64,000 nt of DNA, from assembly GCA_964036295.1 (NCBI GenBank), contig OZ038470.1, positions 10,941,078-11,005,077 on the forward strand, in the 5' to 3' direction. The position numbers and the translations under genes were made by a program. The notes beneath the pieces are model-generated. The model had not been told where the DNA came from. It worked only from the letters and a program-made list of their open reading frames with translations, and made no database searches. Within the stretch, counting starts at the first letter, position 1. The number at the start of each line of letters is the position of its first letter. Below are positions 16,246 through 53,950 of this stretch, in pieces. This DNA is from Plumapathes pennacea (taxonomy: Eukaryota > Cnidaria > Anthozoa > Antipatharia > Myriopathidae).

Positions 16246-19200
16246 TTAGAAGCAAAGTGATGACATAGTTACCTGTTGTGACGTACAGAGAGGAGTCACA
16301 TCATCTCCAATAAGAACGAACGGCGCCCAATAGCGCGGATGTTTAAAGTCAGGGTGCACTCTCATGGCTTTCATGGCTGTACTGAGTGCCTCACTTGCCT
16401 TTTCTCTGTTACCAAGCTCCTTGTAAAACTTCTCCATAAAGTACAAAGTGGCTTTGTCACTAACTGCCCAGAGTGTCGCGAGAACAGCGCGGGCACCAGC
16501 TCCAAGGAACGCACGAGCAATTCCAATCACTCCTTCGGTCTTCACCTCTCCGCGGCCACTGTGGCAACAGCTGAGGACGACAAGCTTGGCTTTCAGACGT
16601 TTCTGTTCCAGGTGAGAGATCGTGAGCATGACGTCTTCTTTTCTGGCTTTCTCTTTATCAACATCAGGGTTTGGCGCGAGCAAAATCTCTCCCCTCTTGT
16701 CGTCTCCGTGTGCTGCGATGTGGATTAAGTTGGCACTTTCAAGTTTGTTGAGGACAGCTTGTCTGGTAGCATTTACTCCCGTAAGAGGCTGGACACCCAG
16801 CAGCTGCCCAATCATCAAGACTTCTTTTTCTGCGTTTGGTAATCTCTCCAGTTTATACTCGCCATCATCGTCTTTATAGCGGGTCACATCCGGGTCTCCC
16901 ACGATCAAGGGACTTGCTTTCACTTCCGATTCTTGTGGGTACTCTCTGATTATCTTTGCTGTTGCTAGTGATGGAACAAGCCTTACCTGCAAGGATTTTG
17001 CTGCGAAATATCCATCTTCAGCAATGAGGGCAGCAAATGGAACCAGCGAGAGTCGACCGTCAGGAACGATGACGACCTGTGACCCTTCAACCAAATGACG
17101 TACAGGCCCCAGAGTGGTCTTGTACAACTTCTTGAGTACTTCGGTTACGGCATTTGTGACAGATTCTGAATCCGAACCTGCCTTGACTTCTTTACTGTCG
17201 TTCGGATGGCCGGTTCTTTTAATGCGCTGCTCGGGAAGTGTCCCTGGACTTCTTTCTTCTGCCGTTAAAGAAGGAAAAACATCTCGAGGTTCCAGAGCAG
17301 TCATCCCTTCATCCGTTTTGAACGGCAATGCGGGGATCATCTCGTTCTTAGCTGGTTTTCTCGCTTCCGCTTGGTAAAGAAACGGCAGTGAACGATCTTC
17401 ACACTGGTCAGTGGAACGTGTGACCATCTTTGTGACACTACCAATCAACGAATTTAGATCTCGAGCAGCACTTGAAACATTATCTGTCAGGCAAGACTCC
17501 AAATCACTTTTAAATTCAACATATCCATTTGGCTTTACGACCCAAAGGCAGGTTTGAGAGTTACGTAATAAGAAAAACACGACTGTAGTGTCAATAGCCT
17601 TGACAAGTTCGAAGATTTGCGCTAGGTCTAAAGCATTGTCATCAGCACATGAAAGAAAATAACGTCTTCTCATCAGCTCAGCCAGTGCTCTGGAGCGTTC
17701 ATCTTCAGCGAAAACCAATGCCTCATTTGTTTTGCCTTGACGAAGCAGAACTTTAAGCAGCAAATTCACGTAATATTGATAGGTCTCAATAAACGATACT
17801 CTGAAATTGTCCTCATTTGGAGTCGTTGTGAAAATTATTTTAAAGCATCCAAGAGAGTTTCTAAGTTCACGTTCAGCTTCGTCGTACTGCCCAAGAGAAT
17901 AGTAACAATTGCCAAGGTTACCATAAGCACGTCCTTCCCCAGCCTTGTCTCCAATCTCTTTCGCAATTTTCAAGCGTAATTCATAGTGTTCTTTTGCCTT
18001 GTCGTACTGCCCAAGAAAATAGTAACAGTTGCTAAGGTTAAGATAAGCACGTCCTTCCCCAGCCTTGTCTCCAATCTCTTTTGCAATTTTCAAGTGCAAT
18101 TCAAGGTGTTCTTCTGCCTTTTCGTACTGCCTTAGCAAATTGTAACAGTTGCCAAGGTTACCATAAACAGCTCCTTCCCTAGCCTTGTCTCCAATCTCTT
18201 TCGCAATTTTCAAACCTAATTCATGGTGTTCTTTTGCCTTGTCGTACTGCCCGAGAGAATCGTAACAGTTGCCAAGGTTAACATAAACAGCTCCTTCCCC
18301 AGCCTTGCCTCCAATCTCTTTTGCAATTTTCAAGTGCAATTCATGGTGTTCTTTTGCCTTGTCGTACTGCCCAAGAGAATAGTAACAGTTGCCAAGGCTA
18401 CCATAAGCAGCTCCTTCCTCAGCCTTCCCTCCAATCTCTTTTGCAATTTTCAAGCGTAATTCATGGTGTTCTTTTGCCTTGTCGTACTGCCCAAGAGAAT
18501 CGTAATAGTTGCCAAGGTTACCATGAGCACGTCCTTCCCCAGCCTTGTCTCCAATCTCTTTTGCAATTTTCAAGTGCAAGTCATAATGTTCTTTTGCCTT
18601 GTCGTACTGCCCAAGAGAATCGTAACAGATGCCAAAGCTACCATAAGCACGTCCTTCCCCAGCCTTGTCTCCAATCTCTTTTGCAATTTTCAAGTCCAAT
18701 TCATGGTGTTCTTTTGCCTTGCCGTACTGCCCAAGAGAACGGTAGCAGTTACCAAGGTTACCATAAGCAGCTCTTTCCCCAGCCTTGTCTCCAATCTCTT
18801 TTGCAATTTTCAAGTCCAATTCATGGTGTTCTTTTGCCTTGTCGTACTGCCCAAGACAAGCGTAACAGTTGCCAAGGTTACCATAAGCTTTTCCTTCCCC
18901 AGCCTTGTCTCCAATCTCTTTTGCAATTTTCAAGTGCAATTCATGGTGTTCTTTTGCCTTGTCGTACTGCCCAAGACAAGCGTAACAGTTGCCAAGGTTA
19001 CCATAAGCAGCTCCTTCCCCAGCCTTGTCTCCAATCTCTTTTGCAATTTTCAAGCGTAATTCATGGTGTTCTTTTGCCTTGTCATACTGCCCAAGAGAAG
19101 CGTAACAGTTGCCAAGGTTACCATAAGCAGCTCCTTCCCCAGCCTTGTCTCCAATCTCTTTTGTAATTTTCAAGTGCAATTCATGGTGTTCTTTTGCCTT

Positions 19201-20108
19201 GTCGTACTGCCCAAGAGAATAGTAACAGTTACCAAGGCTACCATAAGCACGTCCTTCCCCAGCCTTGTCTCCAATCTCTTTCGCAATTTTCAAGAGCAAA
19301 TCATGGTGTTATTTTGCCTTGCCGTACTGCCCAAGAGAACAGTAACAGTTACCAAGGTTACCATAAACAGCTCCTTCCCCAGCCTTGTCTCCAACCTCTT
19401 TTGCAATTTTCAAGTCCAATTCATGGTATTCTATTGCCTTCTCGTACTGCCCAAGAGAATTGTAACAGTTGCCAAGGTTACCATAAACAGCTCCTTCCCC
19501 AGCCTTGTCTCCAATCTCTTTTGCAATTTTCAAGTCCAATTCATGGTGTTCTTTTGCCTTGTCGTACTGCCCAAGAGAATAGTAACAGTTACCAAGGTTA
19601 CCATAAGCAGCTCCTTCCCCAGCCTTGTCTCCAATCTCTTTTGCAATTTTCAAGTGCAATTCATGGTGTTCTTTTGCCTTGCCGTACTGCCCAAGAGAAC
19701 GGTAACAGTTACCAAGGTTACCATAAACAGCTCCTTCCCCAGCCTTGTCTCCAATCTCTTTTGCAATTTTCAAGTGCAATTCATGGTGTTCTTTTGCCTT
19801 GTCGTACTGCCCAAGAGAATAGTAACAGTTCCCAAGGTTACTATAAGCACCACCTTCCCCAGCCTTGTCTCCAATCTCTTTCGCAATTTTCAAGCGTAAT
19901 TCATGGTGTTCTTTTGCAGTGTCGTACTGCCCAAGAGAAGCATAACAGTTGCCAAGGTTACCATAAGCACGTCCTTCCCCAGCCTTGTCTCCAATCTCTT
20001 TTGCAATTTTCAAGTGCAATTCATGGTGTTCTAAATTTTTACTGCTGGAGAGAAGAGTGACAGGTTCCATGTGCACTTCTTTTGAAGTTTTGTATTCTGT
20101 CTGTGTAT
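16246..20108 (-). pseudogene. TPR-CHAT protein gene A, main exon with one in-frame stop
   Basis: From ATG 20070 (MEPVTLLSSSK) one frame of 1274 residues runs to TAA 16246, broken only by TAA at 19309-19311 (codon 254), where a GAA Glu is expected in AKEHHEL. Residues about 10-730 are 18 TPRs of exactly 40 residues (AYGNLGNCY-SLGQYDKAKEHHEL-LKIAKEIGDKAGEG type). A helical region with the EDERSRALAELM motif follows, then a Ser/Glu-rich linker. The CHAT caspase-like domain runs from about 970 to 1270, with VPDGRLSLVPFAAL, catalytic His 1121 (HIAAHGD) and Cys 1169 (VVLSCCHSGRG). TPR-CHAT proteins such as TTC28 pair a scaffold with a C-terminal CHAT fold; proteolysis is not shown here. An acceptor (GTTGTTGTAG) precedes 20108, and a GTAACT donor at 16272 suggests a further 3' exon. 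The stop may be real, allelic or an assembly error. Confidence 0.85.
17880..20035 (-). repeat. 120-bp coding tandem repeat, 18 units
   Basis: Units begin at 17881, 18001 and so on to 19921, exactly 120 bp apart and very similar in DNA (CCAGCCTTGTCTCCAATCTC in nearly every unit). Because 120 is a multiple of 3, the array can gain or lose whole 40-residue TPRs without shifting frame. Confidence 0.97.
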
Positions 20109-20164
20109 CTACAACAACAAGAACAAGAACAACAAACCGCTTTAAAAATATCTTATATGTTTTG

Positions 20165-20312
20165 ACGAGCCACATATTCTATACCACTTGCTTGACTGTC
20201 GAGCCGCCAAGCAGAACAAGTTATATAAAATGAGTGGCTCGCCGGCTCGTGAGTCAAGCAAGTGGTAAAAAATAAGTGGCTCTCCGGGTCGTCAGTGAAG
20301 CTAGCTTTATAA
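20165..20312. repeat. ~55-60-bp GAGTGGCTCGCCGGCTCGT satellite, short array
   Basis: Tandem TATAAAATGAGTGGCTCGCC and TCGTCAGTCAAGCAAGT units sit just upstream of the TPR-CHAT main exon. The same satellite lies at the same place in units B (40498-40645) and C (53995-54330, the longest). Confidence 0.85.
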
Positions 20313-20839
20313 AACAAATTAAGTTTTTCGGGTAATTAAAATAATTAGGGAAAAAAAATTTTTTTTGGAACTATCATAAACTAGCCAATACTCATGCAGA
20401 GGTGGATCGGGGATGAGATTTATCATCGGTGATACACAAGGAGAAGCAGAAACGTTTGATTCACAAATTTTTATTCACAATTAAAAACGCACAGTTTGTA
20501 GCTTATAATAACACACCCACTGACTTAATAAAATCTTTGGGAGTAGTGAAATGTTGAGAATGACCGCGTCTAAGTGTGCGCTCCTACCGAACTAGGCAAT
20601 GAGCACTTGCTAATGGCAAAAAATCTAACGGGAATTCACAAAGTTAGAAAAATCAGTAACTATAGATTAATATTTAGTGTTAGCTCTTTATAGAACGAGG
20701 GAACAGACATCCGCACTTAATAAACCCTTGGAGAAATGCTGGAAATGTCCGCGTGTCAAAAATTATATTGGAAGTTCACAAACTAATGTCCTGTGTTGCG
20801 ATGTGCCCATATCTGGTATAGAGTGTCCACGATGTTTGA

Positions 20840-21400
20840 AGTGATCAACTTGCGGGGGGGCTCTGAAAACTTTTGAGCGTAATCTTATACTTGCTGCAGG
20901 GGAATGCTCTGGCCACGGCAGAATTTTAGCGACAGATTTTTTGATCAGAACGACCATCTTCTGCGCTTGTCGAGGTATGTGGATTTTTACGGTGGTCCCG
21001 AAGTCTTTCAGGTCGTCCACGTACTGGTCAAATTCCTGGTTCTGTACTTCGCAGGCTTCGTGGAGAATATTTCTTGAACTACTGGAAGCTGAGAAGCCGG
21101 CTAGGAAAACGGAGAATGGCAGTCTTGATATCAAGCGCTGTTGGTTGTTCCCTTGTTTTGTCTTTTGCGGGCTGACAGATGCTTTTGATAAATTCCGAGA
21201 ACATGTCCTTCTGAGAGTGGAGGAAGTCAACATAGGCCATCGTTTTCTCATAAGAGGAATGCGTAATATTTTCTGACGGGTCACTGCGTGGTTCACCTTT
21301 CAGCAGATTGGAGATGAAATATTCTACGGTGCTAAGACAAACAGCCACACATGCGACCAGGTCGGTTCCTTTAGATTTCGGTGGTACTTCGCCATTTTAA
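20840..21400 (-). pseudogene. Conserved upstream coding-like block, unit A
   Basis: Minus-strand block shared by all three units. One frame (about 21399-21079) reads a protein-like segment with EYFISNLLKGEP, HSSYEKTMAYVDFLHSQ and QPTALDIKTAILRF. After a frame change near 21080 a second frame reads NILHEACEVQNQEFDQY, DDLKDFGTTVKIHIP and KKSVAKILP. Neither matches a domain I know. The matching blocks in units B and C carry different indels, so this looks like a decayed ancestral 5' exon or a separate gene. It is placed upstream of the TPR-CHAT exon in every unit. Confidence 0.4.
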
Positions 21401-21509
21401 ATGTCGCGGTTGACTTTATTTACGTCTTCAGTCATTTATGGACGTCAGATGCGTGAGGATGCAAGGAATAAGTCTTATTGATGATCTTGTGGGCGTTTGC
21501 AATGGCCTA

Positions 21510-21840
21510 GTTGAAAATGGTTCCAAAACCATTAAACGGCAATGCACCCAGATATTCGCTTGCGTCTTCTTTTTGGGTGGGAGTCGGTTTCAGGGCCGGC
21601 CGGGAGAAGAAATGACCAAGCGGTTCAGTAGACTATGGCCCTTGTCCATGCGGTAGCTAACATTCGTAAAGTTCTGGATCTGTGTTGCCATTAGAATTGA
21701 GAATGGAGTGTTGGCATCAATTTCTCTTGTGAACAAAGTGTAAGTTGCTTCTTCTCCACTCCACAGTTTACACAAAAACTGAACATCTCCGGTGGCGTTT
21801 TCTTCATCGTTCTTCAAAAGTTTGTTTAAGATATCATAAA
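21510..21840 (-). pseudogene. DUF3987-like fragment, frameshifted
   Basis: The minus-strand frame reads GDVQFLCKLWSGEEATYTLF, then FSILMATQIQNF and MDKGHSLLNRLVISSPGRP, then stops. Another frame continues naturally with ALKPTPTQKEDASEYLGALP. The MD.GH.LL.RL..P...KPT pattern resembles the end of DUF3987 (helicase/primase-like) domains, from memory. One indel near 21595 breaks it. No flanking exons were recognised, so it is likely a transposon-borne or retroposed remnant. Confidence 0.4.
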
Positions 21841-23400
21841 CTTATAAACTTATATGTGATAAGGCGATTAAAGATTTTCCCTGCTTTGCTGGTAACTTCC
21901 CAGGGTGACCAATAACATGGCGTATACATTTGTTACGAAATGTATTTTGTAATATCCTAGGAGCTCTATAACAGCCACCTGTATAGGCTGAATAGGTTTC
22001 GTTTCTCATTTACTTCGTGAGTACGAGAATTTAAACAAGTTAAACTTGTGCTGAAGAAACCGCGGGCGTGCCCAGGAATGTTCTTCTGGTACTACTATTT
22101 TTCGTTCTCACTTTGCTCGTTCAACATTACTAAGTTTCTCTCACCTGTTGCGTATTAAAAGGAAGCTATTTTTGTGTGCTTTGATCGGCCAAACTATTGT
22201 TAAACTCCTCAACTCCTCTCGTGGCGTTGTAAGTGGGCATATTTTCATCGGCTGTGGGAAACTTTGGTTTCAAGTTATGGAATGTTGAATGGTCCAAAGA
22301 CAAATACATTAGGTTTCGTTTGTCACCGATTATTTGCCGTCATAAATAACGTATTATCTGTGCTTAGGGGAAGGGCCAGGGGCAGGGGAAAATCAAGCGC
22401 CCAGAAACACAATGTACACTTTTTGCCGGATCAATTGGAGAGGCTGAATTTAAAGTAAATAAACATCACAATAGTTTTTAGTTTTTAGTGAGAGGGGTAT
22501 TCGTAGCGTGCATATGAAAACAATGAACACAGAAAAACGATTCCTTGCTCACCTTTGGTCGTTCAGACGAGATCCTAGTAATAACCTTGATCTTATCGGT
22601 TTGATGGTTGCCGATTTCTCTTTTACTTCTAGTTAAAAAACAAACAAACAAACAAAAAACAGGAAAGAAGTAAAGCATGCAGCCGAATCCGTGGTTCAGG
22701 AAGCTAATTATTCATTGCACTGTGCCTTACCAATTTTTTTTTCGTTGTTTCGTTTCGCAAATTACCATCAGCCTGATAACGAGTTGAACTCGTACTGAAA
22801 AGAAACTGGTAGATGGTCTTTGACCCTGTTTCAAGACACAAATCGGTTTACAAAATTCTTTCCCCTTGACTGATCAAGGTGTACATTTTACACTTTTTAG
22901 GTTTGAGAATGTTCCGTCCGTCCGAACTGTAGTTCCCCAAAAGTCACTTGATAACAACAGATTTTATTCGCTAGCAGATCACTCTCTCTCACTCGACTCA
23001 CAATCACGCTTAAAGACATGTTTTCAGTTCTTGTACTCCACGCGTCCGGCGTGTCGACCTCTGATTGGCTTTCTCCATGACATAATCACTTATCACCTCA
23101 CTCACTCACATACTCACATTACAACATTTCCCAGTCTCCAACATAGGGTCATGAGCAGGGTCGTCTTTTCTTTGTTATATACTAACTAGGATATCTAAAG
23201 ATAGTGATTGCTGCGCTGGTTTTGGTGTAATCTCGCATAACTGTAGTTGGGAGGACATTGCTTTTGCTGGATAGCAACTTATCTACTGGACATGGTTTCG
23301 CATTGAATAACTGGGGCCTACTGTATTCAACAGCACACGACAAGACACCCATGTGGAAAGGAAGAACTCGCGCAGAACGCGTTGTTATTGAGAAGTCAAG
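21841..23400. other. Intergenic, no gene recognised
   Basis: The 22010-22140 segment (AACTTGTGCTGAAGAAAC..., AGGAATGTTCTTCTGGT) recurs in diverged form at 24990-25110 and 29900-29960, so it is a dispersed repeat. The rest is unremarkable AT-rich sequence without exon-like frames. Confidence 0.55.
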
Positions 23401-23401
23401 T

Positions 23402-25852: not shown

Positions 25853-28800
25853 CCTTTAAGAGCGGGTGACTGTAAATATCGAGAACTCGCCGTCAAAACT
25901 GAAATTTCGGATTCCTTCTTCTTTCGTCCGAAAAACCCCTTTGGTGAACTACTTTCGAAAGTCACAAACAAACTTCCCCGGGAGTTTTCATTTTCGGGAA
26001 ATCCGCCCAACTGTGAAATGACGTGATTGCCTTACATCTGCCGTGAAATTCCAACGAAAATTGATGAATGTTCAAACCGTCCAGGAGGAAAGACGGCTCA
26101 AGGGATCAAAACCATCTTCTATACCTTTGTAGGGCATCCTATTTACTACATAGAAACGTAAAAATATTTCAATAGAATGTAATTTTACTGGTTGTTTTGG
26201 AGGCTCGAAAATTCCAATTTCTCGTTCTTTGGTAAACACTCGAACGTCGAGAAAGTTTAGGGGCAAAAATTGCATCCTGGTACGTCAAGTTTTGAGTGGA
26301 AACTAACACTAGAGGAAAGTTCTATCATTGTACTACAATATATAAAAAATTCAGCTTGGGCAATTTAAAATCCACACGCCGAGAGAAGTAAATCCATGGG
26401 CAATTTTTCATATTTTGGCAACTGGATAGTAGGATATAGTTCGTGTTATAATGCAATTCTCAGGTCTTAGTAATATTTCAACTATCCTGTAGATTTGTAA
26501 AAAAAGGGGTTCCAGGGCAGTAATTAAAGCGGGGCCGACAAACTGCCCAGGAATCACGTTCCTGTCGCGTGGCCGCGTCAACATGAACAATTCGCTTCAC
26601 TGGACAGTCCGATTTTTTGATGCTCCACTTCTCTGAAATGGCACAAACGAAACAATACACCTACAGCGATTGCCAACTGGCCACATTTCTTCGCTGTTTC
26701 TGGCGGACTATGGGCGAGGTGTCGGCAGTCGTGGAAAAAAAAAACGCTCAGATTTGCATATGTCACGCTTGTCTAAAACATTCGTTTCCGATATTTGTTG
26801 TTGTGAAAAACACTGCCCAATAGTTAACTCATAGTTTTGATATGAACAGGGCCGGGAAAAGAATAAAAGGCGATAAAGGTTTACAGTAGACACAAAAACG
26901 GAGACAGTTTAGGAGACAATATTGTCCGTCCCTGGTCAGGCACACTGTTGAGGGGTGGGTTCTAAATCCATGCAAGTGCATAAATACCGGACTAATTCTT
27001 TTCAAAAGAGCATTGTATAGGGCTTTTTTTCTGAGGGGTACGTTTGGATTATCGAGTCCAAGTTCACAATAGTGGAATTGCAACTGCCTCACTTCAGTTT
27101 CTTTGTAAGAGTGCCTGCATTTACCACCGCGCACATGTTTTCTTGGTCACGGACAATTGCATGAGTCAGCTGCAATTTGGCAAAATTCGGTTGAGCGGCC
27201 TTAAAGAAGCACTCACCACTGAAACGTTTACTTGACGCATTTCTCGTGCAACTTCTTCCTGCTCCATCTTGTGTCCTGTTGTCTGTCCGACATACAATCT
27301 TAAAGTCAAGAAAGACTTCTGTTTTTCGTCGAAATCACTCGGATTTCTCGTTTTCTTCCAAGCCCAGACTTTGCATGATTGGAAATTGACGACGTTTCTT
27401 TTTTCTTTTCTCTCTTCTTTTTTTGTTTTGTTTTGTTTTTTTGTTTTGTTTTGTTTCTTTTGTTTTTTGTTTTTTTTGCAAAGTTGGTTTATACCAACTC
27501 CCTAGGCAAGTTTTGTAGCGTACATCTCTCTGGCTTGGTCCAGTACGGGTAATGTCCTCTCTGCAATCCGTGCATCTGCCAAAGACAACTATCTTTCTCA
27601 TGCCCGCATGGCGCTAGAATACACTAGTGCAGCCATTTCGAGGCAGCTCAAGGTTTTCAGGTGCAGCATCTTCAGAAGAGTTTTCTTTTCTAGTTTCAAA
27701 GCACCGGGCTTCGAAGGCGCTTACTTAATGACTTGAAACCACCGCCTGAAAATGTTTCCTATCACCGACTTCTCACGCCCCAGCAATTTCCTGTTTTCTT
27801 TTCTTTTTGTTTTTCTTTTGTTTTGTTTTGTTTTTTGTTTTGTTTTTTTTTTGAGGATGGCTGCATAAATCGGCCAGCAACCAATGAGCCAAGAAGACTA
27901 GGACTGCAGCTTCTCATGACGAGAAGAATTATGCCATTGTCCGGGAGTCAGTTGTCGCCAAATTGCACCTGGCTCATATAATTGCCTGTCACCAGCAAAA
28001 CGTGCTTTGCACGATTGGTTCTACAGGCAGGCACTCTTTCAAAGCAAAAACTGAAGCAGTTGCAATTATTCAGCAGCCGAACTTGGACTTGATGTTCCAA
28101 GCCCACCCCCCAGAAATAAATCCCAAACGTTGCTCTTTTGATAAGAATTAGTTCGGTATTTGTGCACTTGCATGGAATTAGAGCCCACCCCTCAACAGTG
28201 TGCCTGACCAGGGACGGACAATATTGTCTCCTAAACTGTCTCCGTTTTTGTGTCTACTGTAAACCTTTGTGGCCTTTTATTCTTTTCCCGGCCCTGTTCA
28301 TATAAAAAAGATGAATTAACTATTGGGCCAAAATGTTTTTGATCCTACAGTGTTTTTCACAACAACAAATATCGGCAACGAATGTTTTAGACAAGCGTGA
28401 CATATGCAAATCTGAGCGTGTTGTTTCCACGACTGCCGACACCTCGCCCATAGTCCGCCAGAAACAGCAAAGAAATGTGGCCAGTTGGCAATCGCTGTAT
28501 AGGTGTATTGTTTCGTTTGTGCCATTTCAGAGAAGTGGAGCATCAAAAAATCGGACTGTCCAGTGAAGCGAATTGTTCATGTTGACGCGGCCACGCGACA
28601 GGAACGTGATTCCTGGGCAGTTTGTCGGCCCGCTTTAATTACTGCCCTGGAACTAGGCTTTTGTACATTATGCTTTTATTTTTCACTAAAATGTTAATGC
28701 TTAATGCTCAAGTTTTCCACTAAAATGCTCGGCAGAATGCTCCGAAATGCTCGAAAAATGCTGATCCTTTTTGTTCGCTTTCTTACTTTATTGAGTTATT

Positions 28801-29838
28801 TTACAGTTATAACTTTGAATTCGGGATGTAACAAGTAACAATGTTTGTAACGATAAATGTAAACTTTAAAACAGAGAAGTAATATGCAAAGGGACTAACA
28901 TGCTTTGAAAATCATGTTGCCAAAGTCACTATAATATTCACACTTGTCACAGCTCAGTCTATCATGACTTCTTCAGTGCTTCTCTGGTCTGGGGAAGTTA
29001 TTTTTTTGTTATAGTTCTTGTCGACTGCCCACTATTTTTACTAGTTTCAGGTTCTCTTGGTCTTTTATTGGTCAAAAACGTCACTAAAATGCCAGCATTA
29101 TGCTTAATGCTTCCAGTCCCCTAAAATAATGCTCAAACAAATGCTAGCATAATGTACAAAAGCCTACCTGGAACCCCTTTTTTACAGATCTACAGGATAG
29201 TTGAAATATTACTAGGACCTGAGAATTGCATTATAACACGAACTATATCCTACTATCCAGAATGAAGCACATTTAACGATAAATCTATTTGAAAATAAGT
29301 TCTCTCGACGTTGTGTGACAGCGGATTTTAAATTGCCCAAGCTGAATTTTTTATATATTGCAGTACAATGATAGGGCTTTCCTCTAGTGTTAGTTTCCAC
29401 TTAAAACTTGATGTACCAGGATGCGATTTTTGCCCCTAAACTTTCTCGACTTTCGCGTGTTTACCTAAGAACGAGAAATTGGAATTATCGAGCCTCCAAA
29501 ACAACCAGAAAAATTACATTCTATTGAAATATTTTTACGTTTCTATGTAGTAAATAGGATGCCCTACGAAGGTATAGAAGCTGGTTTCGATCCCTTGAGC
29601 CGTCTTTCCTCCTGGACGGTTTGAACATGCATCAATTTTCGTTGGAATTTCACGGCAGTTGTAACGCAATCACATTTCACAGTGGGGCGGATTTCCCGAA
29701 AATGAAAACTCCCGGGGAAGTTTGTTTGTGACTTTCGAAAGTAGTTCACCAAAGGGGTTTTTCTGACGAAAGAAGAAGGAATCCGAAATTTCAGTTTTGA
29801 CGGCGACTTCTCGATATTTACAGTCACCCGCTCTTAAT
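25853..29838. mobile_element. ~4-kb foldback structure with ~1.15-kb inverted arms
   Basis: 25853 to about 27010 matches the reverse complement of about 28150-29838, apart from a 513-bp insertion in the right arm. Shared landmarks are GAGCGGGTGACTGTAAATAT, GACAAACTGCCCAGGAATCA and TGTCCGTCCCTGGTCAGGCA. Inward, weaker pairing and T-rich/TTTTG tracts continue to about 27500 and 27780. No recognised protein is encoded. It may be a foldback transposon or a head-to-head insertion of two copies. Confidence 0.8.
28654..29166. mobile_element. hAT-like MITE with 8-bp target duplication
   Basis: The termini are TAGGCTTTTGTACATTATGC and its inverse at 29147-29166, flanked by CCTGGAAC at 28646-28653 and 29167-29174. 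The other arm of the surrounding foldback (near 26510) has a single CCTGGAAC with no insert, which is the empty site. The interior repeats TAATGCT and ACTAAAATG words. Confidence 0.9.
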
Positions 29839-37665: not shown

Positions 37666-40435
37666 TCATGACGTACCGAGGGGAGCAACGTCATCTCCAA
37701 TGAGAACGAAAGGCGCCCAGAAATATGGGTGACCGAAGTCACCACCCTCTCTCATGGCTTCCATGGCTCCATTGAGTGCTTCGCTTGCCTTTTCTCCCCG
37801 AGCAAGGTGCTTGTAGAATTCCTTCATGAAGTACAAAGTGGCTTTGTCGCTCACCTCCCAGAGTGTCACAAGAACAGCACGGGCGCCAGCTCCAAGGAAC
37901 GCACGAGCAATTCCAATCACTCCTTCGGTCTTCACCTCTCCGCGGCCACTGTGGCAACAGCTGAGGACGACAAGCTTGGCTTTTACGCGCTTCTGTTCCA
38001 GGTGGGAGATCGTGAGCATGACGTCTTCTGTTCTGGTTTTCTCTCTATCAACATCAGGGTTTGGTGCAAGCAGAATTTCTCCCCTCTCTGCGTCTCCGTG
38101 AGCTGCGATGTGGATTAAGTTGGCACTTTCGAGTTTGTCGAGGACAGCTTGTCTGGTGGCATTTACTCCCGTAAGTGGCTGGACATTCAGCAGCTGACCA
38201 ATCATCAAGGCTTCTTTTTCTGCGTTTGGTAATCTCTTCGGTTCATAGCTGCCGAGATCGTCCTTGAAATAGGTCACATCCGGGTTTCCAACAATCAAGG
38301 GACTTGCTTGCCCTTCCAGTTCTTGTGGGTACTCTCTGATCATCTTTGCTGTTGCTATTGACGGAACTAGCCTTATCTTTAAGGACTGTGCTACGAAATA
38401 TCCATCTTCATCTACGAGGGTGGCAAATGGAACCAGAGGAATTGGGCCATCAGGAACGACAACGACCTGCGACCCTTCCTGTAAATGTTGCACGGGGGCC
38501 AGAAGGATCTGGTACAACACTTTGAGTACTGTGAGCAGATCAGTCGGTTCTGATTCTGATTTTGATTTACTTTCTTTGCCCTCGTTTGGTTGCTCAGTTG
38601 TTTCATTGCGCCGCTCGGAAAGTGTTGCTGGGCTTATTTCTTGCTCTGGTGGTGCGGCATGTGAGGTGGAGCTATTTCGAGGCACTCCTGGATCAAGAGA
38701 CATACTTTCTTCGTGCGTCATTGTAAACGGCAGTGCGGGCTTCGGCTCGTTCTTGACTTGTTTTCTCACTTGTTCTTGGTAAAGAAATGAAAGCGAGCGG
38801 TCTTCGCACTGGACAGTTGAACGTGGTGTGATCATCTTTGTTGCACTGTCAATCAGCGATTTTAGATTCTGAGCAGTACCTGAGAAACTGTTTGTTAGGT
38901 AAGACTCCAAATCACTCTTAAATTCAACATCTCCATTTGGCTTTACAACCCACAAGCATAGTTGTGAGTTACGTAATGAGAAAAACACGACTGTACTGTC
39001 AATAACCTTGACCAGTTTGAGGATTTGCGCGAGGTCTAAAGCATTGTCATCAGCACATGGAAGAAAGTAACGTCTTTGCATCAGCTCAGCCAATGCTCTA
39101 GAGCGTTCATCTTCAGCGAAAACCAATGCCTCGTTTGTTTTGCCTTGAAGAAAGAGAACTTTAAGCAGTAAATTCGCGTAATATTGATAGGTCTCAATAA
39201 AACATACTCTGCAATTCTCCTCATTTAGGGTCGTTGTAAAAATTGTTTTAAAGCACCCAAGAGAGTTTCTAAGTTCACGTTCAGCTTCGTCGTACTGCCC
39301 AAGAGAGTAGTAACAGTTGCCAAGGTTACCATAAGCACCTCCTTCCCCAGCCTTGTCTCCAATCTCTTTTGCAATTTTCAAGTCCAATTCATGGTGTTCT
39401 TTTGCCTTGTCGTATTGCCCAAGGCTACCGTAACAGAGGCCAAGGTTACCATAAGCACCTCCTTCCCCAGCCTTGTCTCCAATCTCTTTTGCAATTTTCA
39501 AGTCCAATTCATGGTGTTCTTTTGCCTTGTCGTACTGCCCAAGAGAATTGTAACAGAGGCCAAGGTTAGCATAAGCACGTCCTTCCCCTGCTATGTCTCC
39601 AATCTCTTTTGCAATTTTTAAGTGCAATTCATGGTGTTCTTTTGCCTTCTCGTACTGCCCAAGAGAATAGTAACAGTTGCCAAGGTTACCATAAGCACCT
39701 CCTTCACCAGTCTTGTTTCCAATCTCTTTTGCAATTTTCAAGTGCAACTCATGGTGTTCTTTTGCCTTGTCGTATTGCCCAAGGCTATCTCAACAGAGGC
39801 CAAGGTTACCATAAGTACGTCCTTCCCCAGCCTTGTCTCCAATCTCTTTTGCAATTTTCAAGTGCAATTCATGGTGTTCTTTTGCCTTGTCGTACTGCCC
39901 AAGAGAACAGTAACAGAGGCCAAGGTTGGCATAAGCACGTCCTTCCCCAGCCTTGTCTCCAATCTCTTTTGCAATTTCCAAGCGCAATTCATGGTGTTCT
40001 TTTGCCTTGTCGAACTGCCCAAGGCTATCGTAACAGAGGCCAAGGTTACCATAAGCACTTCCTTCCCCAGCCTGGTCTCCAATGTCTTTTGCAATTTTCA
40101 AGTGCAATTCATGGTGTTCTTTTGCCTTGTCGTACTGCCCAAGAGAACAGTAACAGAGGCCAAGGTTACCATAAGCACCTCCTTCCCCAGCCTTGTCTCC
40201 AATTTCTTTTGCAATTTTCAAGTCCAATTCATGGTGTTCTTTGGCCTTGTCGTACTGCCCAAGAGAATAGTAACAGAGGCCAAGGTTACCATAAGCAAGT
40301 CCTTCCCCTGCCTTGTCTCCAATCTCTTTTGCAATGGTCAATTGCAATTCATGGTGTTCCATCTCCTTACTGCTCGAGAGAAGAGTGTCAGGTTCCATGT
40401 GCACTTTTTTGAAGCCTTTTATTTTGTCTGTGTTT
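37666..40435 (-). pseudogene. TPR-CHAT protein gene B, main exon with one in-frame stop
   Basis: From ATG 40398 (MEPDTLLSSSK) 910 residues run to TGA 37666. The frame is broken by TGA at 39790-39792 (codon 203), where related units read TAC Tyr (LCYDSLGQ). There are nine 40-residue TPRs (39293-40372), the EDERSRALAELM helix region, and a Ser/Thr/Glu-rich linker. The CHAT domain has VPDGPIPLVPFATL, His 767 (HIAAHGD) and Cys 815 (VVLSCCHSGRG), the same 48-residue spacing as copies A and C. The terminal TGA lies just before a CAG/GTATGT donor-like site, where A and C have sense codons. The acceptor at 40436-40438 ends a (TTG)n/(CAA)n microsatellite. The exon start has a 1-nt length change against A and C upstream of the ATG. 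It appears the most decayed of the three. Confidence 0.85.
39293..40372 (-). repeat. 120-bp coding tandem repeat, 9 units
   Basis: Unit starts are spaced exactly 120 bp (39293, 39413 and so on to 40253). Most units read GLCY rather than the GNCY common in copy A, so homogenisation has occurred within this gene. Confidence 0.97.
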
Positions 40436-40645: not shown

Positions 40646-41425
40646 AACAAGTTAAGTTTTTCGGATCATCACATAAATTGGGAAAATCAATTTTTTTTTC
40701 TGAACTGTACCATGAAGTAGCCAATACTAATGCAGAGGTGGATTGGGGATGAGATAAACAGGGAGGAAGCAGAAACGTTTGATTCACAATTTTCTATTTA
40801 CAATGAAAAACTCACAGTTTGTAGCTTGTAATAACAGACACGGTGACTTAATAAAATCTTTGGGAGTAGTGAAATGCTGAAAATGACGGCGTCTTAGGTA
40901 TCCGCTTCTACCGTACGAGGCAATGAGCACTTGCTAATGGCAAAAAATCTAATAGGAATTCACAAAGTTAGAAAAATCAGTAACTATAAATTAATACTTA
41001 GCGTTAGCTCTTTATAGAACGAGTCAACAGACATCCGCACTAATAAAAACCTTGGTGAAATGCTCGAAATATCTGCGTGTCAAAAATTATAATGGAAGTT
41101 ATGAAACTAAATAATGTCCGGCTGTCTTGCGATGTGCCCATCTCTGATGTGGGGTGTCCACGTTGTTTGAAGTGGTCAACTTGTGGAGGGGCTCTGAAAA
41201 CTTTTGAGCGTACGCTTTCTTGCTACAGGGGGAATGCCCTGGCAACGGCAGAATTGCGTCGCGCGCTATTACTAAAAATAGATTATGTAAATTAGACCCC
41301 CCACGAGACTCAGACAAACAATGCGATTTTCATCAGAGTGTTCAGTGAATGATGATAAGCTACGCGACCTTCTTCGCTCTTAAAGAAACTCCAAAACGTA
41401 AATTCTGTACTCCTGTGAGTGGGAA

Positions 41426-42435
41426 ATGGTCAGTAGTAAGCATTGCTGCTGGGGGCAGTGCAAAAGTGATGCAAGATATCCAGAAAAGCTTCCGAAATCG
41501 CTCAAGGACATGAAGGAGTCGGGGCGGAAAATTTTCCTTCCGTTCCCGAAGCCTTCACAAGGAGTTGAGAAATGCCAGCGGTGGATAACTGCCTGCTCTG
41601 GAGAGAACTTTGATATTTGGAAGATTTCACGGAACACATATATGTGCGCTCTTCATTGGCCTGGAGAGAAAGGTCCTACCGCCGACCATCCAGATCCATT
41701 GAAAGCAAATGTTACGCCAAAAGAAATCAAGGAGGCTTCCGCAGCGAAGAGGAAGGCGCCAAAAGCTAGATTGGGGCCAACTACTGCTTCAAAAAAGTTC
41801 AGACTTGACGGCGGGTATGATGTAGGTGAGACAGACGGCGATACAATGTTTACGAACATGGAAGAGCCCCAAGAGGTCGACGAGATAGATGCGGAAGGCG
41901 AGTATTTGAGTGCCAGCACGGGAAATATGGTCTTGGACCGAGGCACTCAAACAGAGTACTCTAAGTATGTTTTGTCTGCCAGAGTTGAGACTATGGTTTT
42001 GCGAAACAAAGTTGCCACACGGATAGATGACTCCGAAGAACGACGACGAACTTGTCTTATAGTGAAAATACGAAGAAAGACTCGGCCTCAATGAAGCATT
42101 TCGTGGGACTCACGACGGAACAGTTCGAGGCTCTGTATTCTTTTCTCGATGCTGTTTGCCCTTTGAATAGCATAGTGTATTGGGAGGCCAAAGAATTGAT
42201 TGGATTAAGCAAAGGAGGCACTGGCCGAGATTCCAAGTGTTCAAACCGAGAGAAACTCTTTATTTGTTTGTTGAGATTGAGAAGAGGATTCACCATAAAA
42301 ACTTTGGCCCTTCTACTAAGCTCACTGAAAAGGAAGATTGAAGAAACAACGGTGAGACAGATCTTCACGACTTTTATTCAACTGATGTACAAGATTTTTA
42401 GAGACATGGAGGCAGTGATGTTTCCAACCAGGTGA
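41426..42435 (+). pseudogene. THAP-domain transposase N-terminal half, frameshifted
   Basis: The first frame (ATG 41426) begins with a THAP zinc finger: CCWGQCKSD, FPKPSQG, KCQRWITAC, then CALHW and PDPLKA, that is a C..C...C..H pattern with conserved W and P. An acidic linker follows (MFTNMEEPQEVDEIDAEGEY) with DRGTQTEYS. The frame shifts by one near 42050. The downstream frame reads MKHFVGLTTEQFEALYSFLD, REKLFICLLRLRRGFTIKTL and VRQIFTTFIQLMYKIF...MFPTR, the helix-turn-helix segment that precedes the catalytic domain in DDE_Tnp_4-type transposases. The DDE domain itself is absent. THAP proteins bind DNA through the finger, so this is an inactive transposase remnant. Confidence 0.75.
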
Positions 42436-42651: not shown

Positions 42652-43227
42652 TCAAACATGAGCTTTGCAAAAATAGTGTTCGTCGGATTTTGCATCAACA
42701 ATGTCTTTCCCAATACCCGAGTCGACATATTTCCGGCTTATCCGTCTATGCCCAAGGCCGCCGTCATATTCTTGGTCGTCGTTTTGTGCTGGATCAACGG
42801 CGATAGTTTTGATCGATTCTAACGCGTAGTGGTGAATATGACCATAGTTGAAGAAGGAAGGCATATTTTGTGACGGAAATGGACGCCAGCTTGTCAATGG
42901 AACCAGAGGGACAAAGTCTGTGTTGTTCCGATGAGATCCCGATGTGTCTGCTGCCTTGTTTTCTTTTATAATCTTGGCAGCAAACCACTTTCCTGCATCA
43001 ATACTGACGTCTAGCGTGTGATGATGTCTTGCACTGGTACAATCTGACACTCGTTTGATTAGTTCGCCACGTTTGCCGGTTTGTTTTAGTCCCTGACACT
43101 TCAGCCATCGCTTAAGCTGCTTCACGGTATAATTATCGGGTTCTTGTTTGAAATAGGAACCTGGAACGCCATCAGTTTCAGATAGAATTGTAAAAGGACG
43201 AGCTGAAGTACTACTAATAGTAGACAT
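42652..43227 (-). CDS. SAP-domain protein of the transposon, C-terminally truncated
   Basis: 191 codons from ATG 43227, 40 bp inside the right inner inverted repeat. Residues about 30-65 form a SAP motif (YTVKQLKRWLKCQGLKQTGK, then RGELIKRVSD), a helix-extended-helix DNA-binding fold. A conserved-looking segment with KWFAAKIIKENK, TSWRPFPSQNMP and FFNYGHIHHYALES follows. Such N-termini precede SWIM/YqaJ nuclease regions in cnidarian transposon proteins, from memory; no nuclease motif is present here. The gene faces the THAP gene tail to tail. It is probably the accessory nuclease gene of the element reduced to its DNA-binding part. Confidence 0.65.
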   Translation of the reverse strand: MSTISSTSARPFTILSETDGVPGSYFKQEPDNYTVKQLKRWLKCQGLKQTGKRGELIKRVSDCTSARHHHTLDVSIDAGKWFAAKIIKENKAADTSGSHRNNTDFVPLVPLTSWRPFPSQNMPSFFNYGHIHHYALESIKTIAVDPAQNDDQEYDGGLGHRRISRKYVDSGIGKDIVDAKSDEHYFCKAHV

Positions 43228-43329
43228 ATCTATTGAAACTGCAAAGAAAGTATACGCGCATGTGGTTTGTTCGTTTGAGTCTTGCGGGGGGTCTCGCTTT
43301 TTGTGACGTCATTTGCGCGCTTCGCTATT

Positions 43330-43735: not shown

Positions 43736-43739
43736 TGTT

Positions 43740-46330: not shown

Positions 46331-46470
46331 TAATTAGAGATGCAAGCAATCTCTTCAGAATCTGTCCATAGCAAATAGAGGATACTTTCAAGTATACCAT
46401 ATGATCGATTTTACACATTTTAATCTAAAATAGGATACAACTTTTGCCCTTTTGGTCTGGTTTAGTTTCT

Positions 46471-47428: not shown

Positions 47429-47435
47429 TTAACTA

Positions 47436-47575: not shown

Positions 47576-47783
47576 CACTACTAATGGTACTTGGTCTGAA
47601 ATGGGATGCAAACTTTGAAATGCAGGTCTGAAATAGGGAAAATGCGTGGGATGCAGGCGTGAAATATAGGGCCGTATGGAAACTTGTATATTTTGGTCTG
47701 AAATAGGGTATAGCCTTTGAAGACCTTGCTGAACGCTCTTACCCAAAATTGTGGGTCACGGTTTTGGTTCTGTGAAGATATTA

Positions 47784-48330: not shown

Positions 48331-50488
48331 AAATCAGGCTAACTACCGAAGAAAATTCTGTGACAACCAGACCGATAATGTTACCTACACAAATACAAGC
48401 ACAGGGGTCAAAATACCCTCAGCACAATTCAAACTGTATACAATACCTTGGTATTTTTTGTTATTAACTAATGCAGAGGCAACCTAAGAATCATTATTAC
48501 TTTAAACATTCTAGTTTCTCTTGGCATTACCTAACAATCTCACGTCGTACTTTGAAAGGCAAACTAATGTTTTCTAAAAATGTCATGGCTTACACAACTG
48601 ATGCAGAAATCTATACAATGCAATGCTTTAGTTACCCATATTAAACTTTAAGAGCTTTAATAAAACTCGTTCAAACGTGAACGGAAAATAAAACCTACAA
48701 GTACCCTGTCCGTGTACTACCCTATTCTAATAAAATAATATGAAACAGAATTGTATATGATTTTATGACAATAATTATTCAAAAGCTTCTCCAGCTGGCT
48801 CTAACACTGCATCAAAATTCTGATTCCGAGTTTTAGCGAAACTGCGCTCGATAATGTACTCGGGCTATTTTTAACATGAACATTCGCTGGGTTGGAGATG
48901 TGTGTTTGGTAAACTAACGCGCCGTCTGTTTTGTAATTTACGTTGACACTGGAAGCTTGACATCGTTTTTTATGTTTTGCATTGATGGTGCTTGTCTGCG
49001 CTTCGTGCAGCCAATAGCAGCCGAGTTCACTCGCGAATAAGTTTTTTTCCCCACACATTCCACCAGTCTTCCAATCGGCCTATAAAGTAGAGTGTAGAGT
49101 GCTGTGAATTCAACCTACACTGAGTTTGGTTTTGTTTCTTACGCCATCATTCCATGATTGTGACCAATGGAATGCGGGTTTCCACTCTTCCTGCGGTTAA
49201 GTGGCCCTCCCGAATCTCAACCTCACTAACTGTGTATAGGAAAGTGGTTATCAATCGCCCTAAATCATTTTATTTACTCCAACAATGATAGAAACGGATC
49301 GTGAACTAGGAAATATAGTAATACTAATAATTAAAAATAAATACAACAAAAACGTTAACTGTATTCTCAGACTCATGCCCTCTAAACTGAGAATTAACTT
49401 TAACTTCCAGTTTAGAAACTTGCGCTAATTAAGGTCCATAGTTTGACAGATTTTGTGTTTTCCTAGTGAGCTAGTATGCATAACAACGGGTAATAATGCT
49501 ATAAAACGCTCAACGCTCATAAAACTGTCACAACTTGATACCTCCCATAGAAGGCTCATCAGGAACTCTTGTGCTTCCTTTTACGGGAACATGACGCCTG
49601 CACAAAACGAAACACGAAATGAGCTACACAGAGAAAAGGACAAACAAAGCCAAAACAAAACGAAACGAAACGAAACACCAAATGAACTACACAGAGAAAA
49701 AGGACAAACAAGGCCAAAACAAAACAAAAGCATTTAAATTGGTAGGGTTTTAGAAGTGAATCGAGAGTCACATTGAATTCATTTGTTTATACTTTGGAAT
49801 TGACTACTTTTATCTTGACTCTGTCTGCTTGTCGTTCCGCACTTGTTTTCGGGCTGTTGCGGCTTTTTCCGAACAAGAACAATAACCTTTGCGGAACTGT
49901 TTTAACAAGACCTTTTGCTGTGTGAACAATACCCCTTTTTGCCGAACTATGAACATTGCCTTTCAAGTAACCTTCATTTAAACCTTTATTGTTGCTTTCC
50001 CGCGTGTACTCTAGTTTATATGCACTTATTCATGTAACTGGTCAGTTCATTTCACTGGTCAAGTCAAGTTAAGTTTCAGTCGTCTTCGTTCATTGTAGCT
50101 TTTAGTTCTTCCGCAATTAGAAAACCGTTCCAATTTGTTGTGATGAGTATCAGGGAGACAAGAAGTATGCACCTACATTTCTTCCCTACACGGGCTTCAG
50201 CGGATTTTTTTTTCAGGCTATATTTTCAACTGCTCAAGTTCCTTCATAACTGCGAAGATCACTTTCACTGTCAATGTCTATCTGCGGTTCATACATATGT
50301 GCTTTCTCATATATAAATCGTATCAACATGGCTTAAAGCTAATATTTTTACATATTGCAGAAACGGTACAACACGCAATTACCATCATCGGAGGTCGGTT
50401 CAACAGTGGACTCGGGCCATACACAACACACTTGCAAAATATAAAAAAAGTGCGAATAAAAATACTGGAACTGGCATAAACAGTTAAA

Positions 50489-50764
50489 GGGGCCCTCTCA
50501 GCCAATTTAATTTTCCTGTTTACATCTGAAGTGCGTAAAAAGATTATATATCAGCGGCTGAATTTGGTTCCCAACAAGAAAAATCGTAAAATCGACGACA
50601 AAATAGTTAGGTAGCACATTTAGTCCAATCAAAGACGAAGCCAATCTTCTCAAACGAGTCGGATGGAAATGAACTAGTTAGTAATTTATCTTTTGTTTTT
50701 CAAGGCCCTAAAAATGGCGGATCAAGGATTTCGGCGCGCAAAGGACTGTGGTTGAGAGGGCTCC
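50489..50764. mobile_element. MITE family CCCTCTC...GAGAGGG, full copy
   Basis: It starts GGGGCCCTCTCAGCC and ends GTTGAGAGGGCTCC. An inner CTCAAACGAGTCGGATGGAA is shared with 9135-9378. It lies 3' of TPR-CHAT gene C in the same position as 15919-16048 in unit A. Confidence 0.8.
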
Positions 50765-50897
50765 GCGTTTGTTTTGTGAAACCTTTAAATCCAAGCTGAG
50801 CATGAAAACGTCAGCTGTACTTTAATGAAGGTTATTGGGAATTCATGAACTTCTATGCTGCGTCTGTAAAAACATCAAATTAAAGTTATCGGCTCTT

Positions 50898-53800
50898 TTA
50901 CCAATTCATAATATAAGCAAAGTGATGACGTACCTGTTTTGACGTACCGAGAGGAGTCACATCATCTCCAATGAGAACGAAAGGCGCCCAGAAATACGGG
51001 TAACCGAAGTCACCACCCTCTCTCATGGCTTCCATGGCTCTATCGAGTGCCTCGCTTGCCTTTTCTCCCTGAGCAAGGTGCTGGTAGAATTCCTTCATGA
51101 AGTACAAAGTAGCTTTGTCGCTCACCGCCCAGAGCGTCACAAGAACAGCACGGGCGCCAGCTCCAAGGAACGCACGAGCAATTCCAATCACTCCTTCGGT
51201 CTTCACCTCTCCGCGGCCACTGTGGCAACAGCTGAGGACGACCAGCTTGGCTTTCACGCGTTTCTGTTCGAGGTGGGAGATCGTGAGCATGACGTCTTCT
51301 GTTCTGGTTTTGTCTCTATCAACATCAGGGTTCGGTGCAAGCAGAATTTCTCCTCTCTCTGCGTCTCCGTGAGCTGCGATGTGGATTAAGTTGGCACTTT
51401 CGAGTTTGTCGAGGACAGCTTGTCTGGTGGCATTTACTCCCGTAAGTGGCTGGACATTCAGCAGCTGACCAATCATCAAGGCCTCTTTTTCTGCGTTTGG
51501 TAATCTCTTCGGTTCATAGCTGCCGAGATCGTCCTTGAAATAGGTCACATCCGGGTTTCCAACAATCAAGGGACTTGCTTGCCCTTCCAGTTCTTGTGGG
51601 TACTCTCTGATCATCTTTGCAGTTGCTAGTGACGGAACTAGCCTTATCTTTAAGGACTGTGCTACGAAATTTTCATCTTCATCTACGAGGGTGGCAAATG
51701 GAACCAGAGGAATTGGGCCATCAGGAACGACAACAACTTGCGACCCTTCCTGTAAATGTTGCACGGGGGCCAGAAGGATCTGGTACAACACTTTGAGTAC
51801 TGTGAGCAGATCAGTCGGTTCTGATTCTGAATCCGATTTTGTTTCTTTGCCCTCCTTTGGTTGCTCAGTTGTTTCATTACGCTGCTTGGAGAGTGTTGCT
51901 GGACCTATTTCTTGCTCTGATGGGGCGGCAAGTGAAGTGGAGCTATTTCGAGGCATTCCTGGATCAAGAGCCGTACTTTCTTCGTGCGTCATTGTAAACG
52001 GCAGTGCGGGGTTCAGCTCGTTCTTGACTTGTTTTCTCACTTGTTCTTGGTAAAGAAATGAAAGCGAGCGGTCTTAGCACTGGACAGTGGGACGTGCTGT
52101 GAGCATCTTTGTTGCACTGTCAATCAGCGAACCTAGATCCCGAGCAGCACCTGAAAAACTATCTGTTAGGCAAGACTCCAAATCGCTTTTAAATTCAACA
52201 TCTCCATTTGGCTTCAAGACCCACATTCCAGATTCAGAGTTGCGTAGTGTGAAAAATACGACTGTAGTGTCAATGACCTTGACCAGTTCGAGGATTTCCG
52301 CGAGATCTAAAGCATTGTCATCAGCACTTGGAAGAATGTAACGTCTTCGCATAAGCTCAGCCAATGCTCTGGAGCGTTCATCTTCAGCGAAAACCAACGC
52401 CTCGTTTGTTTTGCCTTGAAGAAAGAGAACTTTAAGCAGCAAATTCGCGCTCCATTGATAGGTCTCAATAAAAGATACTCTGTAATTGTCCTCATTTGGG
52501 GTCGCTGTGAAAATTATTTTAAAGCATCCGAGAGAGTTTCTAAGTGCACATTCAGCTTCGTCGTACTGCCCAAGAGAAAGATAACAGTTGCCAAGGTTAC
52601 CATAAGCACTTCCTTCCCCAGCCTTGTCTCCAATCTCTTTTGCAATTTTCAAGTTCAATTCATGGTGTTCTTTAGCCTTGTCGTACTGCCCAAGAGAATG
52701 GTAACAGTTGCCAAGGTTACCATGAGCACGCCTTTCCCCAGCCTTGTCTCCAATCTCTTCTGCAATTTTCAAGAGCAATTTATGGTGTTCTTTTGCCTTG
52801 TTGTACTGCCCAAGAGAACTGTAGCAGTTGCCAAGGTTACTATAAGCACGTCCTTCCCCAGCCTTGTTTCCAATTGTTTTTGCAATTTTTAAGTGTAATT
52901 GATGGTGTTCTTTTGCCTTGTCGTACTGCCCAAGAGAATTGTAACAGTTGCCAAGGTTACTATAAGCACGTCCTTCCCCAGCCTTGTCTCCAATCTCTTT
53001 TGCAATTTTCAAGTCCATGTCATGGTGTTGTTTTGCCTTGTCGTACTGCCCAAGAGAAAAGTAACAGAGGCCAAGGTTATTATAAGCACGTCCTTCCCCA
53101 GCCTTGTCTCCAATCACTTTTGCAAATTTCAAGCGCAATTCATGGTGTTCTTTTGCCTTGTCGTACTGCCCGAGAGAACAGTAGCAGAGGCCAAGGTTAT
53201 CATAAGCACGTCCTTCCCCAGCCTTGTCTCCAATCTCTTTTGCAATTTTCAAGTGCAATTTATGGTTTTCTTTTGCCTTGTTGTACTGCCCAAGAGAAAA
53301 GTAACATTTGCCACAGTTACCATAAGCATGTCCTTTCTCAGCCTTGTCTCCAATCTCTTTTGCAATTTTCAAGTGCAATTCATGGTGTTCTTTTGCCTTC
53401 TCGTACTGCCCAAGAGAATGGTAACAGTTGCCAATGCTACCATAAGCAGGTCCTTCCCTAGCCTTGTCTCCAATCTCTTTTGCAATTTTCAAGCGCAATT
53501 CATGGTGTTCTTTTGCCTTGTCGTACTGCCCAAGAGAATAGTAACAGAGGCCAAGGTTACCATAAGCTTTTCCTTCCCTAGCCTTGTCTCCAATCTCTTT
53601 TGCAATTTTCAAGTGCAATTCATGGTGTTCTTTTGCCTTGTCGTACTGCCTAAGAGCAAGGTAACAGTTCCCAATGTTACAATAAGCATGTCCTTGCCCA
53701 GCCTTGTCACCAATCTCTTTTGCAATTTTCAAGCGTAGTTCATGGTGTTCTTTTGCCTTGTCGTACTGCTTAAGAGAATAGTAACAGAGGCCAAGGTTAT

Positions 53801-53950
53801 CATAAGCATATGCTTCTCCAATCTTGTCTCCAATCTTTTTTGCATTGGTCAGTTGCAATTGATGGTGTTTTATATCCTTACTGCTCGAGAGAAGAGTGTC
53901 GGGTTCCATTTGCTCTTCTTCTGAAGCCTTGTATTCTGTCTGTGTAACAA
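50898..53950 (-). pseudogene. TPR-CHAT protein gene C, main exon with one in-frame stop
   Basis: From ATG 53909 (MEPDTLLSSSK) 1003 residues run to TAA 50898. The only break is TAA at 52074-52076 (codon 612), where copies A and B read GAA in VQCEDRSL; it separates the TPR part from CHAT. Eleven 40-residue TPRs fill 52561-53880. A helix with EDERSRALAELM and an acidic linker follow. The CHAT domain has VPDGPIPLVPFATL, His 847 (HIAAHGD), Cys 895 (VVLSCCHSGRG) and YFWAPFVLIGDD at the end. If translated as annotated, the product would be a TPR-only protein of 611 residues. An ATG-initiated CHAT piece is possible but unsupported. A GTACGT donor at 50933 suggests a further exon. The acceptor lies before 53950, with TQTEYKAS in frame upstream of the ATG as in copy A. 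Confidence 0.85.
52561..53880 (-). repeat. 120-bp coding tandem repeat, 11 units
   Basis: Unit starts are 120 bp apart (52561, 52681 and so on to 53761). Units are more diverged from each other than in copy A, for example CGKCYFSLGQYNKAKENHKL beside CYSSLGQYNKAKEHHKL. Confidence 0.97.

Follow-up and report, generated by a model that had tools for sequence, protein, structure and literature searches.

The 64,000-nucleotide window analysed here, from Plumapathes pennacea (assembly GCA_964036295.1, contig OZ038470.1, positions 10,941,078 to 11,005,077), contains a tandem cluster of three genes, referred to as copies A, B and C, each encoding an array of TPR units followed by a CHAT domain. Each copy is interrupted by one premature stop codon. 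The three copies were probably knocked out recently and independently by nonsense mutation, most likely as null alleles that still segregate in the population. The pattern resembles a routine, recent loss of genes from a cluster with fast turnover and does not point to a new mechanism.

The three copies lie in one orientation on the minus strand, within 38 kilobases (kb). Their arrays consist of units of 40 residues (120 base pairs, bp), with 18 units in A, 9 in B and 11 in C, 38 in total. Many Pfam TPR matches were found in every copy, and a single CHAT match (PF12770) at the C-terminus covers nearly the whole Pfam profile in all three. The copies share the start MEPxTLLSSSK. Measured from its ATG to where the CHAT core ends, they comprise 1258 (A), 904 (B) and 984 (C) codons, with no frameshift in any. 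The CHAT dyad, composed of the His of AAHGD and the second Cys of SCCHSG, is intact, with a spacing of 48 residues in all three copies. Comparison with the chains of solved structures gave two chains at E up to 1, both with distant sequence similarity; the best, the CHAT chain 8rot (E 4.9e-6), aligns its His with this His and its Cys with the second Cys of SCCHSG. As judged from the sequence, A, B and C each contain a putative His-Cys catalytic pair of a CHAT cysteine protease-like domain. Antisense to the catalytic part of CHAT, an open frame of 148 codons was observed on the plus strand of each copy (16282-16728, 37672-38118 and 50943-51389), which is probably a by-product of homology.

No CHAT remnant besides A, B and C was detected within the window by tblastn with the CHAT piece of C (E up to 1). 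Searching viral contigs with this piece only yielded three pattern matches and no confirmed relative. Genome contigs were searched with an alignment of the three post-stop pieces, giving 311 pattern matches and six distant prokaryotic CHAT loci; these six were dropped as an outgroup for polarising changes, being too remote.

Exactly one stop was found per copy between the ATG and the end of CHAT, at codons 253 (A), 202 (B) and 611 (C), counted from zero. An earlier note on this DNA had reported single nonsense codons (TAA at 19309, TGA at 39790 and TAA at 52074) in otherwise open exons with the CHAT His and Cys intact, in place of an expected Glu, Tyr and Glu. Positions, frames and open exons were confirmed in all three copies from the ATG to the end of CHAT, and the expected residues are supported by the unit columns for A and B and by the sister copies for C. 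At the column of stop A, 33 of the 38 TPR units carry GAA, while a Tyr codon (35 TAC, 2 TAT) occupies the column of stop B in 37 of 38. Because two adjacent bases are changed between TAC and TGA, stop B is no single-base hit. At the position of stop C, Glu is found in both A and B. On the coding strand, a G-to-T change accounts for stop A and for stop C alike. Stops A and B are each confined to one unit, the nearest sister unit of which has no stop. The reading frame is thus disrupted, as in a pseudogene, by one nonsense codon in each of the three copies. Such a stop would remove CHAT from the product, of which no more than the TPR-bearing part, some 253 (A), 202 (B) or 611 (C) residues, would be left.

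The ratio of nonsynonymous to synonymous divergence (dN/dS), which the earlier note had suggested measuring over CHAT with codeml, was obtained by NG86 counting and proved to be well below 1. In the 294 codons compared over CHAT (columns 235-531 of the protein alignment), B and C differ by 12 nonsynonymous and 17 synonymous changes, a dN/dS of 0.21 with an upper 95% limit of 0.43 (p = 5e-5 against neutrality). Outside the arrays as a whole, dN/dS is 0.34 for A-B, 0.32 for A-C and 0.37 for B-C, and the coding parts after the arrays contain in-frame indels only. All of this reflects past constraint. Since sequence was exchanged between B and C (see below), selection has acted on CHAT in both over the greater part of the interval, and each copy would have stayed functional as a protein gene, maintained by selection, up to very recent times.

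The age of the lesions was estimated from six comparisons of duplicated flanks, which are presumed to be non-coding and some of which overlap open frames without Pfam matches; two further comparisons of the 5' flank, A-C and B-C, with 9 indels each, were not counted because they are not independent of A-B. The six comparisons contain 346 substitutions and 43 indels, 35 of which are not a multiple of three, so that a frameshifting indel accompanies roughly every tenth substitution. In the frames of A, B and C, a random substitution creates a stop in about 4.2% of cases (transition bias 2), and a neutral copy is expected to gain 0.14 lesions per substitution, or 388 to 540 per unit divergence. 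From one lesion each, the divergence since loss is 0.0019 (A), 0.0026 (B) and 0.0024 (C) substitutions per site, with upper limits of 0.0088, 0.0122 and 0.0112, respectively. Had the copies decayed neutrally over half of the silent divergence of A from B and C (0.21 substitutions per site), 114 (A), 82 (B) and 89 (C) lesions would be expected, where one each is observed. Old pseudogenes were ruled out by this expectation of dozens of lesions together with the persisting constraint: with neither a dN/dS near 1 nor several lesions per copy, the three are broken but have not aged as old pseudogenes do. Heterozygosity of 2.3% in P. lobata and 1.14% in P. cf. effusa has been reported (PMC10236652). 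Segregating nulls are likely because the lesion ages are small against this coral heterozygosity; lesions near the point-estimate ages are expected to be still segregating, which is less clear at the upper limits. Among the causes that the earlier note had proposed, recent inactivation or segregating alleles fit the numbers best (low dN/dS, no frameshifts, about 0.002 substitutions per site), whereas readthrough finds no support, its contexts being unfavourable and without an Rfam match at the gathering score.

Exchange between the tandem copies is evident from relationships that shift from one part of the gene to another. The closest pair in the 5' flank is A-B, with differences at 68 of 477 aligned sites; the figures are 137 of 461 for A-C and 127 of 456 for B-C. 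This closeness is uneven, and in one of the four windows A-B and B-C are equally close. After the array, the copies are equidistant for 400 columns, with 23 (A-B), 20 (A-C) and 22 (B-C) pair-shared sites. Beyond 400 columns, to the end, B and C are alike (206 pair-shared sites, against 26 for A-B and 23 for A-C), and the silent divergence between them is 0.27 at protein columns 0-140 and 0.09 over CHAT. The stop of C, at DNA column 468 of the post-array alignment, likely lies inside this B-C-like stretch, just past its edge, which is known to about 100 bp only. It is probably younger than the B-C exchange, since B has no stop there. Near the catalytic Cys (A about 16490-16600; 30 codons from LKAKLVVLSCC), A was observed to differ from B and C at 0 and 1 synonymous codons, compared with 2-7 and 2-10 in other windows. 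This low silent divergence may be due to a short conversion tract or to constraint on the DNA itself.

Within the arrays, change is concentrated at a few positions of the TPR unit. Over the 38 units, 122 of 252 nonsynonymous changes fall at columns 19, 22, 26, 29 and 30, which correspond to canonical TPR positions 2, 5, 9, 12 and 13 (by the Pfam TPR_1 alignment, in which profile position 3 is column 20). Positions 2, 5, 9, 12, 13, 33 and 34 have been described as the TPR positions that vary most, and as lying on the concave face, where ligands bind (PMC1261162); positions 33 and 34 stand outside the present test, the 40-residue unit being longer than the canonical 34. The ratio of nonsynonymous to synonymous changes (pN/pS), counted against the commonest codon, reaches 4.39 at the five columns, whereas the remaining 35 are constrained, with 0.58 (Fisher p = 3.5e-7), and 9 of 200000 random five-column sets hold as many changes; since the units share ancestry, these p values are too small. 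The five positions were chosen after the column ranking had been seen, though the set is part of the published one (PMC1261162), and the fourth most variable column, column 4, is absent from the published positions. For the single copies, pN/pS at the five columns and at the rest is 4.5 and 0.52 (A), 2.0 and 0.46 (B), and 12 and 0.75 (C, where the value of 12 involves one synonymous change). Whole-array dN/dS is near 1 (0.73-1.26), and this is explained without decay, because the five ligand-contact positions of each unit change very fast. Array-wide dN/dS is therefore misleading here. Recognition of varied ligands has been suggested for coral TPR-CHAT proteins (PMC12314368); the pattern seen here is as would be expected of such a recognition repertoire, and makes the suggestion testable residue by residue.

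The following course of events is proposed. The cluster would turn over in a birth-and-death process, by tandem duplication, by change of TPR unit number in 120-bp steps and by exchange between copies, and for this reason no single copy would be indispensable; selection would maintain the family, not each member. An independent nonsense mutation would then have arisen in each copy, most likely as a null allele segregating in the population. If so, the cluster offers a view of functional presence/absence variation of single members while it is arising, and this would be relevant to the large differences in TPR-CHAT number between coral haplotypes.

Several observations weigh against this account. 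Birth-and-death has been proposed for coral tandem families, and homogenisation as the rule argued against, on the ground that multigene families show high intraspecific diversity, inconsistent with a homogenising mechanism (PMC10236652); the exchange between B and C fits uneasily with this, and the B-C-like stretch would be a local exception to the non-homogenised pattern. Assignment to the coral family comes from architecture, unit-number variation and tandem layout, features that suggest membership, rather than from agreement with a named genome. In the linker where the stop of C lies (columns 140-235), B and C differ by 15.5 nonsynonymous and 6.5 synonymous changes (dN/dS 0.70), so that constraint on the linker is weak, if any, and the linker is a poor guide to when the loss took place. 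The lesions are nonsense without exception, with no frameshift among them; the probability of this outcome is about 0.025 with the indel rate as measured, and 0.09 or 0.24 if that rate is halved or quartered. This is a mild oddity, and simple repeats in the flanks may have overstated the indel rate. The earlier note had called three tandem single hits unusual, which is only partly right: what stands out is that all three hits are nonsense. The count of lesions may itself be incomplete. The CHAT exon of B ends in a TGA directly before a donor-like CAG/GTATGT, where A has CAA and C has AAA; all three copies carry CAG/GTA at this exon end, and if the donor is used, B may carry two in-frame stops relative to A and C. 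Beside the donor of A (GTAACT), a 4-bp indel separates A from C, and this donor may count as a second hit. The single hit may thus be wrong for both A and B. Downstream of copies A (14077-14519) and C (48430-48848), a conserved stretch with an acceptor-like start was observed (337 of 369 aligned bases alike, 8 indels), which may be the last, mostly untranslated exon; a counterpart of this stretch was sought for B and not found.

Among base error, readthrough, decoys and splicing as alternatives to recent loss, only base error deserves real weight, and even this is unlikely. Some or all of the stops would then be consensus errors of the assembly, for example from polishing with reads mis-mapped among near-identical repeats or paralogues, or from a haplotype mosaic. 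Identity between the 120-bp units reaches 97% (4 of 120 positions different), a setting in which read placement can fail; the lesions are all substitutions, as after polishing that removes indels, and A and C share the same G-to-T change. However, the other visible units carry no stop at the columns of A and B, and mis-mapped reads would bring in sense codons, while the stop of C lies outside the repeats. It is rather improbable, too, that the cluster is a reservoir of recognition receptors in which copies shift in and out of function and those with stops form a standing store of units and CHAT segments. In such a reservoir, the TPR units would diversify under selection at ligand-contact positions, and a stop within an in-phase 120-bp unit could later be removed by unit deletion or gene conversion.

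It is very unlikely that selection now maintains the copies as proteins limited to TPR units, as decoys or as dominant negatives that lack the protease-like domain. All three stops do lie upstream of CHAT and leave about 4 to 11 whole TPR units, but CHAT starts some 69-78% into the coding region and all three would be upstream by chance with a probability of about 0.4. Moreover, CHAT shows no extra decay, and the downstream donor would expose the transcripts to nonsense-mediated decay. It would be surprising if the stops were tolerated, with readthrough, recoding or editing still yielding the full TPR-CHAT protein. An intact and formerly constrained CHAT downstream and the lack of frameshifts in any copy would suit it; young stops, however, would explain the constraint, two of the three stops are UAA (UAA-C in A, UAA-G in C), the UGA of B is followed by G, and the three share no site. 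The leaky readthrough context is UGA-CUA, and no Rfam family reaches its gathering score within the window, so that there is no support for a recoding element; neither mark of programmed readthrough was seen in the sequence. A bypass of the stops by splicing or a downstream start is hardly to be expected. An acceptor-like TTG/TTC tract just upstream of the common ATG suggests that the gene may have introns, yet stops A and B lie within gapless arrays of continuous in-frame 40-residue units, and the next in-frame Met after the stop is at codon 799 (A) or 439 (B), counted from zero, past the TPR array. Recent loss by nonsense mutation accordingly remains the favoured explanation. Coordinates of the features are collected in the table below.

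Table. Features of the three TPR-CHAT copies (positions in the window)
Feature	Position	Strand	Remarks
Copy A TPR array, 18 units	17866..20025	-	ATG 20068-20070; Pfam TPR
Copy A CHAT	16303..17142	-	Pfam E 9.4e-60; His codon 16708-16710, Cys codon 16564-16566
Copy A TAA	19309..19311	-	TPR unit 6
Copy A donor-like GT after CHAT exon (CAG/GTAACT)	16271..16272	-	splicing predicted
Copy B TPR array, 9 units	39274..40353	-	ATG 40396-40398; Pfam TPR
Copy B CHAT	37693..38529	-	Pfam E 2.9e-62; His codon 38098-38100, Cys codon 37954-37956
Copy B TGA	39790..39792	-	TPR unit 5
Copy B exon-terminal TGA	37666..37668	-	before donor-like site
Copy C TPR array, 11 units	52545..53864	-	ATG 53907-53909; Pfam TPR
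Copy C CHAT	50964..51800	-	Pfam E 1.6e-63; His codon 51369-51371, Cys codon 51225-51227
Copy C TAA	52074..52076	-	linker between TPR array and CHAT
Copy C donor-like GT after CHAT exon (CAG/GTACGT)	50932..50933	-	splicing predicted

The neighbourhood of the cluster contains several further features. Nested inverted repeats, 91% and 87% alike, lie between copies A and B (25856-29837) and are probably a fold-back DNA element. Upstream of copy B, weak matches to THAP and HTH_Tnp_4 that fall short of the Pfam cut-offs (41402-42435, plus strand) and a SAP domain match above the cut-off (42652-43308, minus strand) perhaps mark a DNA transposon. A fragment of an XK-related protein is found beside the cluster (59999-60790, minus strand, Pfam E 6.9e-34), and a GC-rich minisatellite with nested periods of 5 to 59 bases (6137-6940) overlaps a 163-codon open frame on the minus strand.

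How do the three copies compare with known systems? The prokaryotic TPR-CHAT protease Csx29 (Craspase) and other CHAT proteins resemble A, B and C in having CHAT with a His-Cys pair. Csx29 differs in its partner Cas7-11, none of which is expected in an animal genome, and neither of the two structure matches was named Csx29. Human TTC28 (TPRBK), a putative human homologue, likewise has TPR followed by CHAT; unlike in the present cluster, this architecture occurs in only 1 or 2 copies in most non-anthozoan animals, and the human protein acts in cytokinesis (PMC12314368). The closest likeness is to the TTC28-like expansions of Acropora, Montipora and Pocillopora, with a variable N-terminal TPR array, one CHAT, tandem clusters and non-allelic recombination (PMC12314368, PMC9145168, PMC6208414). 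With a long N-terminal TPR array, a single C-terminal CHAT and tandem clustering with exchange, A, B and C would belong to this coral TPR-CHAT family. Counts of 276 and 304 such genes have been given for two reference haplotypes of Acropora, with a range from 6 to 362 over the stony corals compared; the clustering of these genes in non-syntenic regions was attributed to non-allelic homologous recombination (PMC12314368).

A, B and C differ from these coral expansions in the premature stop of each copy. The model of PMC12314368 includes pseudogenes as one fate of duplicates, while "stop codon" and "nonsense" occur 0 times in the main text as available, where stop-bearing TPR-CHAT copies are thus unreported. 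Among the matches listed, by their titles and the beginnings of their abstracts, no paper deals with stop-bearing coral TPR-CHAT copies or with site-level selection in them. Overall, the expansion of coral TPR-CHAT genes and its turnover are already known, and to these A, B and C would add members with probably young stops.

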